The position numbers and the translations under genes were made by a program. 30,553 bases of DNA from a virus. The DNA is taken from the IMG/VR virus record IMGVR_UViG_3300009684_000117, positions 1-30,553 of that record. One strand, given 5' to 3'. Below, one piece after another: positions 1 to 17,147 of the stretch. Below the pieces are notes generated by a model. It was not told the origin of the DNA. It saw only the letters and a program-made list of their open reading frames with translations, and ran no database searches. Each line of letters opens with the position of its first letter. Within the stretch, counting starts at the first letter, position 1.

Positions 1-110
1 CGATAAACTCAAAGTTTTAATACTAGGATACATTTAGGTATAAAATCGTGCCTTAAATGTGCCTTAAAATCGATTTTAGCCTTTTTTTAGCCTTATTTAA
101 AATGTAATTA

Positions 111-451
111 TCCTAATTTAGGACATTTTCCATTTTGGATCAATTTTGTAGCTATTTCCTTATTTAGGATGTTCTACAACTAATTAGACTTCTCCTTGAA
201 AAGATCACTTTATCCTGGTTTAGGACATTGTGATTTGTCCTCATTTAGGACATTTACTTTTGGGATATTTTATCCTTATTTAGGATAGTTACTATTAGGG
301 ACATTATGCAACTAATTAGGACTATCCTTAAACAGATCAGTTTGTCCTTATTTAGGATGTGTGATTTGTGCTGCTTGGCATGTCCTGGTTTAGGACATTA
401 TGCAATTAATTAGGACTATCCTTAAATAGATCGGTTCATCCTTATTTAGGA
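111..451. repeat. Eight-copy palindromic 13-bp repeat array (TCCTnnTTTAGGA)
   Basis: Eight copies of the imperfect palindrome TCCT-nn-TTTAGGA start at 111, 157, 213, 238, 273, 345, 383 and 439. The two variable bases are AA, TA, GG, CA, TA, TA, GG and TA. Three copies (213, 345, 439) sit at the end of a longer composite repeat of about 42 bp that also carries TTAG-GAC-TATCCTTAAA-AGATC elements (184-225, 317-357, 411-451). Spacing is irregular (25-72 bp). No reading frame of note is present. Palindromic iterons in front of an early operon suggest a replication origin or a multi-site operator; which one cannot be decided from sequence alone. Confidence 0.85.
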
Positions 452-473
452 CATCAGAAATTACGCATCTTTT

Positions 474-578
474 AACTCTACTAATTCGGTATAACTACTA
501 TAACTTGGGAAGCAACTTAACTCGACTAATTTGGTAGAACTACTATAACTATACTAATTTAATATAACTCTACTAATT
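474..578. repeat. Four-copy AACTcTACTAATT repeat
   Basis: The 13-mer AACTCTACTAATT occurs exactly at 474 and 566, and with one substitution at 519 (AACTCGACTAATT) and 547 (AACTATACTAATT). Copies at 474 and 519 are followed by related GGTATAACTACTAT and GGTAGAACTACTAT tails. It is a different family from the palindromes to its left and the GC-rich repeats to its right. Function unknown; part of the same non-coding control block. Confidence 0.75.
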
Positions 579-614
579 ACATAGAACTAATGTACTTTTT
601 ATATAGAATTTATA

Positions 615-719
615 CCCACCGAGGCAACCCACCGAGGCAACCCGGCGAGGCAACCCACCTATTAAACCTAGATCCCACCGAGGCAACCCAGCGAGGCAAC
701 CCACCTATTAAACCTAGAT
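615..719. repeat. GC-rich CCCACCGAGGCAA tandem repeats (two 46-bp units plus one 13-bp unit)
   Basis: The 13-mer CCCACCGAGGCAA is present at 615, 628 and 674, with variants CCCGGCGAGGCAA at 641 and CCCAGCGAGGCAA at 687. Each pair is followed by CCCACCTATTAAACCTAGAT (654-673 and 700-719), so 628-673 and 674-719 form two 46-bp direct repeats with a single mismatch. The array is far more GC-rich than its surroundings and ends 22 bp before the -33 element of the first early promoter, a position suited to a protein-binding array. A solitary CCCACCGAGG copy is at 2767. Confidence 0.9.
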
Positions 720-740
720 GTTAAAATTATCATAAAACTA

Positions 741-771
741 TTGTGAGATTCAAATAACCGACATATATTTG
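741..771 (+). promoter_or_regulatory. Early promoter P1 (TTG-N20-TATATTTG)
   Basis: TTG at 741-743, a 20-nt spacer, and TATATTTG at 764-771 match the Bacteroidota primary sigma-factor consensus (TTG, 17-23 nt, TAnnTTTG). Transcription would start near 778, giving a short A-rich leader before the ATG at 795. It likely drives the first early operon. Confidence 0.75.
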
Positions 772-3895: not shown

Positions 3896-4565
3896 TAGAC
3901 AACAAGCATTACAGAATAATGAGCTTTATACAATGAACCATACTGGGGAGGCAATTGCTTGCTCTAATGCTCCTCAACGTAGTGAAGATTGGTACAAAGA
4001 AAGATATGGTAAGTTTACTGCCTCTACGATCCACAAATTACTTGGAGCTAGAGGTCTAGGTCAGACTGGAGAGAGTTATGCAATTGAGAAAGCTATAGAA
4101 CAATTATATGGACAAATTGAAGATGGATATAAAGGCGCTGATATGCAAAGAGGAATAGACCTTGAACCACTGGCTTTTGCAAAGTTTAAAGAATTGTATC
4201 CTGAAACTACAGAATCTTTTATGTATCCATATGGAGAACACGCAGGAGCATCTCCAGATGGAGTTGTAGGAGCTGATGGAATACTTGAGATTAAATGTCC
4301 TAGAGCTACTAAGTTTTTTAAGATAGTTGCTGATGGTAATATCGATAGTGAGTACATTGCTCAAATGCAAATGCAAATGTTGTGTAGTGGAGCTAAGATG
4401 GCGTATTTCTTCAATTATTGTATTGTTCACGGAGAGGAATTACATCATTTGATTAAAGTGCCTAGAGATGAAGCTATGATAACTTTAATTAAGGAAAGAC
4501 TTGAGATGGCTATTGCTATTAAAGAAAGTTATATCACTAAGATAACTAATAATTTAAAAGTATAA
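3888..4565 (+). CDS. YqaJ-family (lambda exonuclease-like) recombination nuclease (225 aa)
   Basis: PD-(D/E)XK nuclease of the YqaJ viral recombinase family, which degrades one strand from dsDNA ends to prepare 3' tails for annealing. Visible motifs: R31-xxx-W35 with GKFTAS (41-46), RGIDLEPLA with E93, the catalytic D124 in GASPDG, E134-I-K136 in LEIKCP, and a following Q-rich helix with Q159 and Q161. The length is normal for the family. It overlaps both neighbours. A partner annealing protein of the RecT or Erf type is not recognisable; the candidate ssDNA-binding protein at 5933-6592 is the best candidate to work with it in recombination or replication. Confidence 0.92.
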   Translation: MSNRQQALQNNELYTMNHTGEAIACSNAPQRSEDWYKERYGKFTASTIHKLLGARGLGQTGESYAIEKAIEQLYGQIEDGYKGADMQRGIDLEPLAFAKFKELYPETTESFMYPYGEHAGASPDGVVGADGILEIKCPRATKFFKIVADGNIDSEYIAQMQMQMLCSGAKMAYFFNYCIVHGEELHHLIKVPRDEAMITLIKERLEMAIAIKESYITKITNNLKV

Positions 4566-4906
4566 TGCCACAGTGTACAACACCCGAAACAATTGGTAGA
4601 CAATTTGGAGTAGGGAAAAATGCTATAATAAGAAGATTTAAAAAACTTGGAGTTGAACCATTTAATTTAAATCATAAGTTATACTTTTTGAATAGCGATA
4701 TAGACCTATTAAGAGAGAAAAAAAGAATTAGTATCCTAACAACGACTGTTGAACGATTTCATATAATAGAGTACTTCTTATCAAATAAACACAATGGCTC
4801 TAAAGTAATAGCTGATTTCTTAGATATTTCAGTTAGAAAAGTAGATAGAGTTATCTCTGATTATTTCAATGCGGGATCTTTTGTTGTAATACAAAGTAAG
4901 TTATGA
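4565..4906 (+). CDS. DNA-binding protein with two helix-turn-helix motifs (113 aa)
   Basis: Two HTH-like segments are seen: residues 8-29 (TIGRQFGVGKNAIIRRFKKLGV), resembling an excisionase/MerR-type motif, and residues 79-99 (SKVIADFLDISVRKVDRVISDY). This suggests a small DNA-binding regulator or architectural protein. Start ATG overlaps the upstream stop by 1 nt (taATG). Target unknown; the palindromes at 111-451 are one possibility worth testing. Confidence 0.7.
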   Translation: MPQCTTPETIGRQFGVGKNAIIRRFKKLGVEPFNLNHKLYFLNSDIDLLREKKRISILTTTVERFHIIEYFLSNKHNGSKVIADFLDISVRKVDRVISDYFNAGSFVVIQSKL

Positions 4907-5124
4907 TAACTAAATGTAAAGGAACAGATTGTCCTATAAGAATGTGGTGCTACAGATTTACTTCAATGCCGGAGAAGTTAAACCAAAAGTATTTAGAAGT
5001 AGTTCCTAAAATTGTAGATGGCGATTGTGATGAGTACTGGGAAAATCAATGCCCATACTGTAATGAGTATAACGGAATACATAAATTTGATTGCGCCACT
5101 AATAAAATAACAGTAATACTATGA
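4903..5124 (+). CDS. Cysteine-rich, probably zinc-binding protein (73 aa)
   Basis: Eight Cys and one His are distributed as CKGTDCPIRMWC (residues 5-16), GDCDEYW, CPYC (51-54) and H-x3-C, a pattern suited to one or two structural zinc sites. The N-terminal 'CkgtdCpir-wC-RFts' layout recurs in small phage proteins of unknown function. ATGA overlap with the upstream gene. Confidence 0.65.
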   Translation: MITKCKGTDCPIRMWCYRFTSMPEKLNQKYLEVVPKIVDGDCDEYWENQCPYCNEYNGIHKFDCATNKITVIL

Positions 5125-5348
5125 ATCGAGATGAGTACATAAGAATAAAGGAATCAACTCCAATGGAGCTAGTGTGGATTTATTACAAAGAACACTCCGA
5201 TACGCTAACTAAAGGAGAATTATATATGTACTTAAACTCTTATGATAATATAAATACAATTCTAAATACTGTAATATCTAGGTATGATAAAAAATTTGAT
5301 ATAACAGTTGTACTTACAGCAGATGGCAAATACATAAAATCAATATGA
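5121..5348 (+). CDS. Hypothetical protein (75 aa)
   Basis: 75 residues in the coupled operon (4-nt overlap on each side). Mixed alpha/beta, ending in a beta-like segment (FDITVVLTADGKYIKSI). No recognised motif. Confidence 0.6.
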   Translation: MNRDEYIRIKESTPMELVWIYYKEHSDTLTKGELYMYLNSYDNINTILNTVISRYDKKFDITVVLTADGKYIKSI

Positions 5349-6658: not shown

Positions 6659-7297
6659 ATGAAAAGAATACTAGTAGCTTGCGAAGAGAGTCAAGCAGTA
6701 ACAATAGCATTTAGAGAATTAGGATTTGAAGCATTTAGTTGTGACTTGCTTCCATGTAGTGGGAATCATCCCGAGTGGCATTACCAAGAAGATATGTTTG
6801 AGGTCATAAAAAGAGAGCCTAGGTTTGATTTAATGATTGCATTTCCTCCGTGTACAGACCTAGCGGTTAGTGGAGCGATGCACTTTGCAAAGAAAGTTGC
6901 TGATGGTAGTCAACAGAAAAGTATTCAGTTTTTTATGGATATTATAAACGCTGATGTTGATAAAATTGTAGTTGAAAATCCAATAGGGATTATGAGTAGA
7001 CTCTACAGAAAACCCGACCAAATAATCCAACCTTGGCAATACGGAGATAAAGCACAGAAAAGCACTTGCTTATGGCTTAAAAACATATCTAAGCTAGAAT
7101 CCACCGACATAGTTGAAAAAGGAGAGTTTTTTGAGTGGACTGATAGAAAGACCGGGGCAAAGAAAAAGCAGCCAATGTGGTATTACAAGGCGCTACTAGA
7201 TGCAAAAAGTCCAGAGCATAGAAGAACTTTAAGAAGCAAAACATTTCAAGGAATAGCGAATGCAATGGCGCAACAGTTTGGAAATCAATTATTATAA
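6659..7297 (+). CDS. Small C5-cytosine methyltransferase-like protein (212 aa)
   Basis: Second methyltransferase-like protein, of the short phage family that begins with ILVACEESQAV (residues 4-13, motif I). Motif IV is FPPCTDLAVSG with candidate nucleophile C65, motif VI is VENPIG with E106-N107-P108, and QYGDKAQKSTCLWL (127-140) corresponds to the QYGD motif of the homologue at 1167. It lacks a target-recognition domain of normal size. No restriction partner is nearby, so it is more likely a protective or regulatory modification enzyme than part of a restriction-modification system. Starts 19 nt after the terminator T-run; no clear promoter of its own was found, so some readthrough is implied. 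Confidence 0.8.
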   Translation: MKRILVACEESQAVTIAFRELGFEAFSCDLLPCSGNHPEWHYQEDMFEVIKREPRFDLMIAFPPCTDLAVSGAMHFAKKVADGSQQKSIQFFMDIINADVDKIVVENPIGIMSRLYRKPDQIIQPWQYGDKAQKSTCLWLKNISKLESTDIVEKGEFFEWTDRKTGAKKKQPMWYYKALLDAKSPEHRRTLRSKTFQGIANAMAQQFGNQLL

Positions 7298-7299
7298 CT

Positions 7300-9615
7300 A
7301 TGAACGTATCTGTATTTAAAGACTTATTAAAGTCAAAAGAAGTTCCATTTATTGTACCAATAGAAAAAGTTGTTACAAGAATAAGGGAAGGTAAAAGTAA
7401 GGATTTAGTTGAACGTATTAGAAAAGGAGAAGATTTAAAAAAACAACTCCCTTGCATTTTATTTGCAGGTGAATTTTCAGAGCGAAACTCCAATGGATTG
7501 GTATCTCATTCGGGACTAATGGTTGTAGATTACGACAAATATCCCGATAATGCATCAATTAACGAACATTTTAAATTATTGAAGCAAAATCCACACTTTG
7601 TACTTTTGTTTATAAGTCCTAGTGGAAATGGTATAAAAGGAGTAGTAAAAATCCCAGTAGCTGATAAAGATAGTCACCCTAAATACTTCAAAGCATTTCA
7701 AAAGAAATTTGACTTTGATTATTTTGATATAGCCAACTCAAATGTAGATAGAGTTTGTTTTGAGTCTTATGACCCGAATATTTACGTTAATTATGAAGCT
7801 GAAATGTTTGATGCTAAATTAATTGATGAAGGTTTTAGTATTACGGAGCGAGTTCCATTAGTTCCAATTGGAGATGAGGATAAGATTATTGATAAAATAA
7901 TGAAATTTAATTGGGGTAAAGGATTTCACGATGGTGAGCGAAATGCATTTATATTTGATATTGCCGGAGCATTTTGTGAGTATGGAATAACTCAATATAC
8001 TGCTGAAAACTATATCATTAATAATGTTATCATTGGTGACTTTACAGACCAAGAAGCAAAAAATACTATCAAATCTGCCTACCGTAAAAGACAATATGAC
8101 TCAAAATACTTTGAGGATTATCAGAAAATTGATAGAATTAAATTAGACTTACATCGAGGTAAAACTGAAGTAATGAAAATACACAATATCGATGAGAGTA
8201 CATTTGATGATTTAAAAGAGGTAAGTGAGAACGATAACTTTTGGTTTTTAGATAAGAAGGATAATGTTAAAATTGACTCCCTAAAATATAAATTATTCCT
8301 AGAGGAAAAGGGATTTGCCAAACATTATCCAAATGGAAGTGATAAGCCGATGTTTGTATTTATAAAAGAAAACAAGGTAAAAGAGTCATCTATTTCCAGG
8401 ATTAAGGATTTTGTTCTAACGTATCTGCTTGAAAGAAAGCACATTGACGTATTTAACTACTGTTCTACCTATCATAATCTATTTACAGAGCAGTATTTAA
8501 TAATGTTAGAAACAATTGATTTACTGATGCTTAAGGACTCAAAAGACTATAGCTATATTCCATTCTCCAATGGAGTTTTAAAGGTAACTCAAACCGCAGT
8601 TGAGCTTAAGGAGTATTTTGAGATGGATGAATACATATGGGAAAGTCAGATATTGGATCGTGAGTGGAAGAAAACAAAGACAACTGATAATGACTATCAA
8701 AAGTTCATCGAGAATGTATCTCACAACGACCCTACGGCAATGAAATGTACGATAGGTTACTTACTATTAAATTATAAAAATCGTTCCCAAAATAAGGCTG
8801 TAATACTCAATGATGAGATTATATCTGAGTCTCCCGAAGGAGGAACTGGAAAAGGATTATTTGTGCAGGGAATTGGTCAGATAAGAAGAACAGATATTAT
8901 AGATGGTAAACAGTATGATAACAAAAAGTCATTCGCTTATCAGACCATTTCATTAGAAACTAAAGTATTGGTATTTGATGACGTTAAGAAAGGTTTTGAT
9001 TTTGAGAATAATTTCAGTTTAATTACAGAAGGAATTACCTTAGAGAAGAAAAATAAGGATGCTATCAAATTAAATGTACACGAATCTCCAAAGGTTATCA
9101 TCTCTACTAATTACGCAATAAAAGGAGATGGTCACTCACAGGATCGCAGAAGGCACGAATTAGAGATAGCTCAATATTATGGTAAGAATTTAACTCCGGA
9201 GAAGGATTTTGGTAGACAACTTTTTGATGATTGGGAATTATCTGATTTCCATAAGTTTGATAACTATATGATTGAATGTTTACAAGAGTATTTTACATTT
9301 GGACTTATAGCTCAAAACAGTAAGAATACTCATATCCGTAGATTTATCGCAAGTACATCTCCCGAGTTTAACGAATGGTCAATGGATAGTGAGAATTTAC
9401 CAGTAGGAATTAGACTTGACAAGCAGGTTTATTTAGATAATTTTAAAAGAGATTATCCCGATTTCGCCCAATTTAGATTAACTCATAAACGATTTCAAAT
9501 GTTCATACAGAAATATTGTCAATTTAAAGACTTGAAATACAGTGATGGTAATAGCAATGGAATGAAATGGTTTATGATTGATGAAGAAAAAATTGAAGAT
9601 GATGAAATATTTTAA
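7300..9615 (+). CDS. BT4734/VirE-N-type primase fused to SF3-like helicase (771 aa)
   Basis: Replication primase-helicase. The N-terminal part resembles the BT4734-like (VirE N) archaeo-eukaryotic primase-type domain: LMVVDYD with candidate metal ligands D77 and D79, SPSGNGIKGVV (106-116) and NVDRVCFESYDP (148-159). A PriCT-like helical segment follows (about 208-268). The helicase core has Walker A EGGTGKGLF (513-521), Walker B VLVFDD (556-561), a sensor 1-like ISTN (601-604) and arginine-finger candidates RRR (616-618). Walker A has Gly where Ser/Thr normally follows the Lys. A C-terminal winged-helix-like tail (about 680-765) probably contacts DNA. It starts 2 nt after the methyltransferase-like stop. 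The last part of the gene is duplicated 162 bp downstream. Confidence 0.9.
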   Translation: MNVSVFKDLLKSKEVPFIVPIEKVVTRIREGKSKDLVERIRKGEDLKKQLPCILFAGEFSERNSNGLVSHSGLMVVDYDKYPDNASINEHFKLLKQNPHFVLLFISPSGNGIKGVVKIPVADKDSHPKYFKAFQKKFDFDYFDIANSNVDRVCFESYDPNIYVNYEAEMFDAKLIDEGFSITERVPLVPIGDEDKIIDKIMKFNWGKGFHDGERNAFIFDIAGAFCEYGITQYTAENYIINNVIIGDFTDQEAKNTIKSAYRKRQYDSKYFEDYQKIDRIKLDLHRGKTEVMKIHNIDESTFDDLKEVSENDNFWFLDKKDNVKIDSLKYKLFLEEKGFAKHYPNGSDKPMFVFIKENKVKESSISRIKDFVLTYLLERKHIDVFNYCSTYHNLFTEQYLIMLETIDLLMLKDSKDYSYIPFSNGVLKVTQTAVELKEYFEMDEYIWESQILDREWKKTKTTDNDYQKFIENVSHNDPTAMKCTIGYLLLNYKNRSQNKAVILNDEIISESPEGGTGKGLFVQGIGQIRRTDIIDGKQYDNKKSFAYQTISLETKVLVFDDVKKGFDFENNFSLITEGITLEKKNKDAIKLNVHESPKVIISTNYAIKGDGHSQDRRRHELEIAQYYGKNLTPEKDFGRQLFDDWELSDFHKFDNYMIECLQEYFTFGLIAQNSKNTHIRRFIASTSPEFNEWSMDSENLPVGIRLDKQVYLDNFKRDYPDFAQFRLTHKRFQMFIQKYCQFKDLKYSDGNSNGMKWFMIDEEKIEDDEIF
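9536..9593 (+). repeat. 58-bp direct repeat, copy 1 (inside primase-helicase 3' end)
   Basis: Exactly identical over 58 bp to 9698-9755. This copy is in frame in the primase-helicase gene and encodes its last conserved residues (YSDGNSNGMKWFMIDEEK). Confidence 0.95.
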
Positions 9616-16842: not shown

Positions 16843-16993
16843 AGTCGGAGCTATGTTAGAAGTAGCTAAAAGAGATTTAAATCCAAGTGTATATTGGAAA
16901 TTAGACCAAGAAGGACAAAAGAAATGCGTTGAATCGCAACAAAGAGAAGTAGACACATTACAATACATTTATAATTTAATAGAAAATGAGTAA
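16820..16993 (+). CDS. Small hypothetical protein (57 aa)
   Basis: ATG 16820 to TAA 16993, overlapping both neighbours. Helical, charged (ALYKVGAMLEVAKRDLNPSVYW). No family; accepted on packing in the operon. Confidence 0.55.
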   Translation: MREQALYKVGAMLEVAKRDLNPSVYWKLDQEGQKKCVESQQREVDTLQYIYNLIENE

Positions 16994-17147
16994 CACAAAA
17001 GGTGGTTTTAGAGAAGGAGCAGGTCGAAAAAAACTAGATTATGACTTCAAGATTATACAAGTTAGAGTTCCTGCAGTATTAGAAAACGAAGTAAAATATT
17101 TCATAAAAAAATTAAGAAAAGAATGGCTTATAGCAAACACACAGTAG
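16986..17147 (+). CDS. Small REGAGRK-motif DNA-binding protein (53 aa)
   Basis: GGFREGAGRKK (residues 6-16) followed by IIQVRVPAVLENEVKYFIKKLRK is the layout of short phage ribbon-helix-helix-like proteins: basic Gly/Arg-rich N-terminus, a beta strand VRVP, then helices. Likely DNA binding, possibly a transcriptional regulator. 8-nt overlap upstream, 25-nt overlap downstream. Confidence 0.6.
   Translation: MSNTKGGFREGAGRKKLDYDFKIIQVRVPAVLENEVKYFIKKLRKEWLIANTQ

Follow-up and report, generated by a model that had tools for sequence, protein, structure and literature searches.

Intergenic regions dense in CtrA-binding sites have been described in pili- and flagellotropic alphaproteobacterial phages (PMC9437464), and the packing of regulator sites into a single phage intergenic region is thus already known for CtrA. 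Two other described systems resemble the locus analysed here: the ori/crr repeats and alpha protein of phage P4 (PMC4234260), and the cluster A mycobacteriophage stoperators, short sites that recur many times and bind a phage regulator (PMC9283540). The locus is a block of repeated sites in a virus record of 30,553 bases (the window, which is the entire record). As in the CtrA phages, one large phage intergenic region is packed with predicted regulator sites, both in the window and in its relatives, and in the relatives the regulator would be that of the host. It differs from the CtrA case in the phylum, in the relatives’ regulator (218 aa, HTH/ACT-like and probably amino-acid linked), in a window motif that has no known host regulator, and in that no overlap with a promoter was seen. 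The likeness to P4 lies in repeats carried by an element that encodes a primase-helicase of several domains, the C-terminal one read as a winged helix, but here the sites are palindromic rather than short direct iterons and vary between phages, while the C-terminal domain is nearly constant. Unlike stoperators, which are asymmetric and genome-wide, the window sites are pseudo-palindromic and lie in one block, and no immunity repressor was identified. The literature searched described no exchangeable slot with operators for an HTH/ACT-like regulator of Flavobacteriaceae.

Relatives of the phage were collected through its primase-helicase (59–92% identity) and through flanking motifs. One close relative, G004 (IMGVR_UViG_3300034167_000419; 44,113 b), has ends that overlap by 104 bp and is therefore taken as circular and essentially complete (~44.0 kb), so the window record would lack roughly 13 kb and appears to be a fragment of a ~44 kb phage. 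Early genes run rightward (0.9–17.2 kb), including a RecE/YqaJ-type exonuclease, a primase/DUF5906 helicase, a SNF2-type helicase, and two DNA methyltransferases, and structural and lysis genes run leftward (17.4–30.5 kb). The homologous block in G004 is the point of divergence of the early operon and the late operon, the latter with small genes followed by genes that, by inspection of their sequences, are TerS-like, terminase-like, and portal-like. The nearest cellular matches were contigs of Flavobacteriaceae metagenome-assembled genomes (MAGs), which points to Flavobacterium-type hosts. The block had no match among phage and plasmid records, and pattern scans of viral contigs for window-type arrays returned unrelated coding repeats only. 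The two methyltransferase genes are located at 1167–1805 and 6659–7297, and close relatives of the first are numerous in viral contigs that otherwise differ.

The sequence-only reading had described eight palindromic 13-mers in a gene-free block, and both the count and the setting were borne out: eight exact copies of TCCTNNTTTAGGA occur, all on the + strand (Table 1), and bases 1–667 contain no ORF ≥50 aa. A motif count over the rest of the record, which that reading had suggested, found zero further copies on either strand, and the reversed control pattern had no match. Among same-arm 4+5+4 palindrome families in bases 1–600, the largest had eight members, compared to a maximum of four in 2000 Markov-1 simulations and of two in the other 600-bp segments of the record. 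Site-to-site spacings were 46, 56, 25, 35, 72, 38, and 56, an irregularity from which the earlier reading had argued against a simple microsatellite, and a microsatellite or chance origin was rejected. The 11 fixed positions of TCCTNNTTTAGGA were identical in 8/8 copies (100%), whereas the 15-bp flanks were near random (37–39% identity; random expectation, 29%). Though the block descends in part from a composite repeat, noted in the earlier reading and resolved here as a 75-nt unit (three copies at 154, 286, and 380; 68–75% identical), the contrast between invariant sites and diverged flanks points to selection acting on the site and not just to recent duplication. The term palindromic holds for the 4-bp arms, which match, but not for the asymmetric 5-bp core, in which TTT is always on the + strand, and the sites are hence pseudo-palindromes. 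DnaA boxes (TTATCCACA-like) were considered and set aside, as the TTATCCT overlap looked accidental.

Table 1. Positions of the control-region features and of the genes considered as binders in the window.
Feature	Position	Strand	Basis or remark
Conserved left element GATACATTT...CTTAAATGTGCCTTAAAATCGATTTTAG	1..98	.	Base-by-base alignment with nine relatives; cut by the record’s left end
Site 1 TCCTAATTTAGGA	111..123	+	Positional match of CTACTAATTTAGTAGGGTATT in L082, L337, L052, L061, L066
Site 2 TCCTTATTTAGGA	157..169	+	
Site 3 TCCTGGTTTAGGA	213..225	+	
Site 4 TCCTCATTTAGGA, extended palindrome TGTCCTCATTTAGGACA	238..250	+	
Site 5 TCCTTATTTAGGA	273..285	+	
Everted half-sites TTAGGA-CTA-TCCTTA (TTAGGACTATCCTTA)	316..330	.	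Sequence
Site 6 TCCTTATTTAGGA	345..357	+	
Site 7 TCCTGGTTTAGGA, extended palindrome TGTCCTGGTTTAGGACA	383..395	+	
Everted half-sites TTAGGA-CTA-TCCTTA (TTAGGACTATCCTTA)	410..424	.	Sequence
Site 8 TCCTTATTTAGGA	439..451	+	
Second repeat family, four copies of TTAACTCTACTAATTCGGTATAACTACT-like units	472..597	+	
G+C-rich tandem repeats CCCACCGAGGCAACC (variants in relatives)	615..719	+	Present in relatives too
Early rightward promoter TTG-N20-TATATTTG (predicted), Bacteroidota -33/-7 type	741..771	+	-7 box and surroundings conserved in relatives
Candidate binder, protein with two HTH domains (113 aa), strongly diverged from relatives	4565..4906	+	
Primase/SF3-type helicase, considered as origin binder	7300..9615	+	

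The same invariance of the arms in 8/8 copies weighs against recognition of the repeats as hairpins, that is, as ssDNA or RNA structure rather than as sequence. As DNA, sites 4 and 7 reach folding energies of -4.7 and -5.5 kcal/mol, and hairpins whose stems differ accompany repeats in two distant relatives (L110 and L134), but at most sites the stem is 4–5 bp long and reaches just -1.6 to -2.2 kcal/mol, and no Rfam match was found, leaving this among the less likely readings and a most improbable one.

The control region follows a fixed order in the relatives, consisting of the left element (window 1–98), palindromes, G+C-rich tandem repeats of 13–24 bp, and the promoter TATATTTGCA. The left element was 78.6% identical to that of L066 over 98 bp, and the predicted early promoter was the sole match to TTG-N20-TATATTTG within the first 1.5 kb (-33/-7 consensus TTTG/TANNTTTG; PMC6847099). 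Directly after the left element, site 1 (TTATCCTAATTTAGGACATT) lines up with a palindrome that reads TTAGTCTACCAATTTAGTAGGGTATT / TTATCCTATTAATTTAGTAGGGTATT in L337 and L082 and that has further forms in L052, L061, and L066. The CTACTAATTTAGTAGGGTATT palindrome occurs in 1–3 copies in the relatives, so the TCCT site is best read, from one position in one region, as an altered and expanded form of a phage-lineage site. A second motif, CTACTAANYTRGTAGGG, was not recovered as a host operator (0 matches in 150 host genomes).

Several other repeats and insertions were observed in this part of the phages. The G006 slot (L053 2460–2616) has five tandem repeats with CCAG-ATAGA-CTGG, another 4+5+4 palindrome. 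The CCCACCGAGGCAACC repeat is common to distant phages (window 615–719; L110 20006–20874; L134 1660–2010), and in L110 and L134 a hairpin comes after several of the copies, with a stem sequence that varies from one copy to the next. The same repeat (GAGGCAACC) was also located within the 3' ends of small genes (L056 3430–3450, L052 1480–1510, L182 640–690), where it adds tails such as NPTRQPTE and looks as if it spreads into the ends of genes. Two relatives, L049 (1030–1640) and L053 (2890–3490), carry an apparent HNH-type homing endonuclease gene with the tandem repeats on one side and the early promoter on the other.

Given an almost even chance of being correct is the reading of the block as a cis-acting, operator-like platform of binding sites in a divergent early/late control region. 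In its favour are the position at the early/late divergence, the layout kept in relatives, eight sites with invariant arms and none elsewhere in the record, and the host operators predicted for this slot in sister phages. Against it, the array is not overlapped by a promoter, as 290 bp separate site 8 from the early promoter and the record does not extend to the late one; two relatives (G006 and G007) have the region without palindromes of either type; and the window motif is neither a host operator nor enriched in hosts.

For most relatives, the slot was found to contain TGTTATATTTGTAACA (the TGTTA-type arrays), from one exact copy to nine close copies (carriers include L052, L061, L066, L082, L049, and L087), and exact TGTTATATTTGTAACA was confined to the slot in the records of those relatives. 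The array was also present in L339, a marine contig with different flanks. The 16-mer had 46 matches in 31/101 genomes from the genus to which the Flavobacterium MAG belongs, compared to one for the reversed control. Six of the seven host sites read (L226–L232) are just upstream of a conserved gene for the 218-aa HTH/ACT-like regulator, with the remaining site upstream of an AlaDh/PNT-type dehydrogenase gene. The 218-aa protein has weak matches to DUF7523 and ACT_7, below curated cut-offs, and was present in 61/90 genomes of the family. Among the 30 orthologues with readable upstream DNA, 19 had TGTTATATTTGTAACA (≤2 mismatches) ≤150 bp upstream, compared to 1% of shuffles. The regulator gene is divergent from an apparent lysC in more distant genera (by inspection), and this gene anatomy suggests autoregulation and an amino-acid signal. 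TGTTATATTTGTAACA is accordingly predicted to be a host operator upstream of a Flavobacteriaceae HTH-ACT-type regulator gene, and since it is slot-only in the phages and upstream of the regulator gene in the hosts, the slot of the sister phages would hold operators of that regulator. No phage-borne copy of the host ACT regulator was found, and no gene in the comparison table was shared by all TGTTA-array phages and missing from the rest. It is possible, though somewhat doubtful, that an exchangeable early/late slot carries regulator-site arrays throughout, many of which are host HTH/ACT operators reading or titrating the amino-acid state, and that the window slot was re-targeted to another regulator. 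The predicted host-operator arrays of the relatives are the more interesting part of the finding, and the window array, with candidate binders only, is the less informative case.

The window motif did not behave as TGTTATATTTGTAACA did in host genomes. It had two matches in the 101 genus genomes compared to seven for the control, its 11-base core was close to the control, and the extended palindrome had one match in the 101 genus genomes and none in 395 phylum genomes; the window site was thus not recovered as a host-chromosome operator in either set. A degenerate host TGTTA operator was also rejected, as no site in the block matched with ≤3 mismatches. These counts bear on whether the TCCT array is a sensor or decoy that reads or titrates another host transcription factor, for which the TGTTA arrays of the sister phages and the CtrA-site-dense regions of alphaproteobacterial phages (PMC9437464) offer direct precedent, and which a single TGTCCTTATTTAGGACA in genome G028, ~400 bp from an XRE gene, also favours. 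The lack of enrichment in the genus, the absence of the extended palindrome from the phylum, and the alignment of site 1 with a phage-lineage motif absent from 150 host genomes make this explanation quite improbable. Only two TCCTNNTTTAGGACATT matches occurred in the 101 Flavobacterium genomes (L233 1501, L234 1501), both near XRE regulators and surface-polysaccharide genes, and one adjoins an UpxY-type antiterminator, which could be chance.

Under the operator-like reading, the failure to find a host counterpart of the window motif makes a phage-encoded regulator probable, and the HTH protein at 4565–4906, proposed as a binder in the sequence-only reading, is the best, albeit weak, candidate among the phage proteins. 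It is 35–40% identical to its homologues, compared to 57–95% among most of these, so that it has diverged from the relatives far more than most neighbouring proteins have, and its second recognition helix reads LDISVRKVDRV in the window where the relatives have FFIPQxRIDRI. G006 and G007, however, lack the TGTTA array and keep the old FFIPQxRIDRI helix; G015 has TGTTA sites, yet its HTH homologue is only 28% identical. The small protein at 5121–5348 shows comparable divergence, and no gene in the set compared correlated cleanly with array type. The structure model (pLDDT 77.5) returned weak matches only, the N-terminal part matching RacA/BldC-type winged HTH domains. The other binder suggested by the earlier reading, the RHH-like protein at 16986–17147, was discarded, as it is 66–79% conserved in phages with different or no arrays.

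The main rival, itself held to be unlikely, is a replication origin with iteron-like initiator sites beside an AT-rich unwinding region, serving a P4-alpha-like primase-helicase or another initiator and the host polymerase. The block is the largest divergent non-coding block, has eight spaced repeat copies, and is 68–73% A+T in bases 1–600 (the whole genome is A+T-rich). The C-terminus of the phage primase/DUF5906 helicase resembles a winged helix, a domain reading that is partly inference, and P4 alpha binds origin repeats through such a helix (PMC4234260). That C-terminus is, however, nearly identical in the window and in TGTTA-type phages with quite different palindromes, which argues against the primase-helicase reading the arms, and P4-alpha-like palindrome binding was disfavoured for this lack of covariation. 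The structure model of the primase-helicase was too poor for use (pLDDT 39.7). No other initiator was found in the phage, nor a cognate initiator with a DNA-binding domain matching the repeats. The cumulative GC-skew minimum of G003 (2815) adjoins its array motif (2633), but that of G002 is 3.4 kb away, and the skew follows the direction of transcription, turning where the operons converge and not across from the array, so GC skew does not decide the matter. Of the iterons or operators first proposed, a conserved non-coding control region with a motif-unique, non-microsatellite, binding-site-like array stands, and the regulator array is favoured over the origin because the slot of the relatives holds predicted host-regulator operators.

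It was also considered whether the block, upstream of the late operon, is a pac region at which terminase recognises the DNA. Such sites usually lie in or beside terS. The TerS-like gene of G004 is within ~3 kb on the late side, and the assembly of G004 as a circle is compatible with circular permutation, but a distance of ~3 kb places the sites neither in nor beside that gene; this reading is likewise less likely, and very improbable.

Returning to the operator-like platform, a dimeric, sequence-specific regulator would bind the TCCT/AGGA half-sites cooperatively and, once bound ~300 bp upstream of the early promoter, would control or time the divergent early/late transcription, and may also control phage copy load. 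If true, an uncultured family of Flavobacterium-type phages would couple the early/late decision to DNA-binding regulators through multi-copy operators, and these regulators would include an apparently autoregulated host regulator that is widely conserved in the Flavobacteriaceae. It would then be a second, independent case after CtrA of a phage wired to a host regulator through an intergenic region dense in operators.
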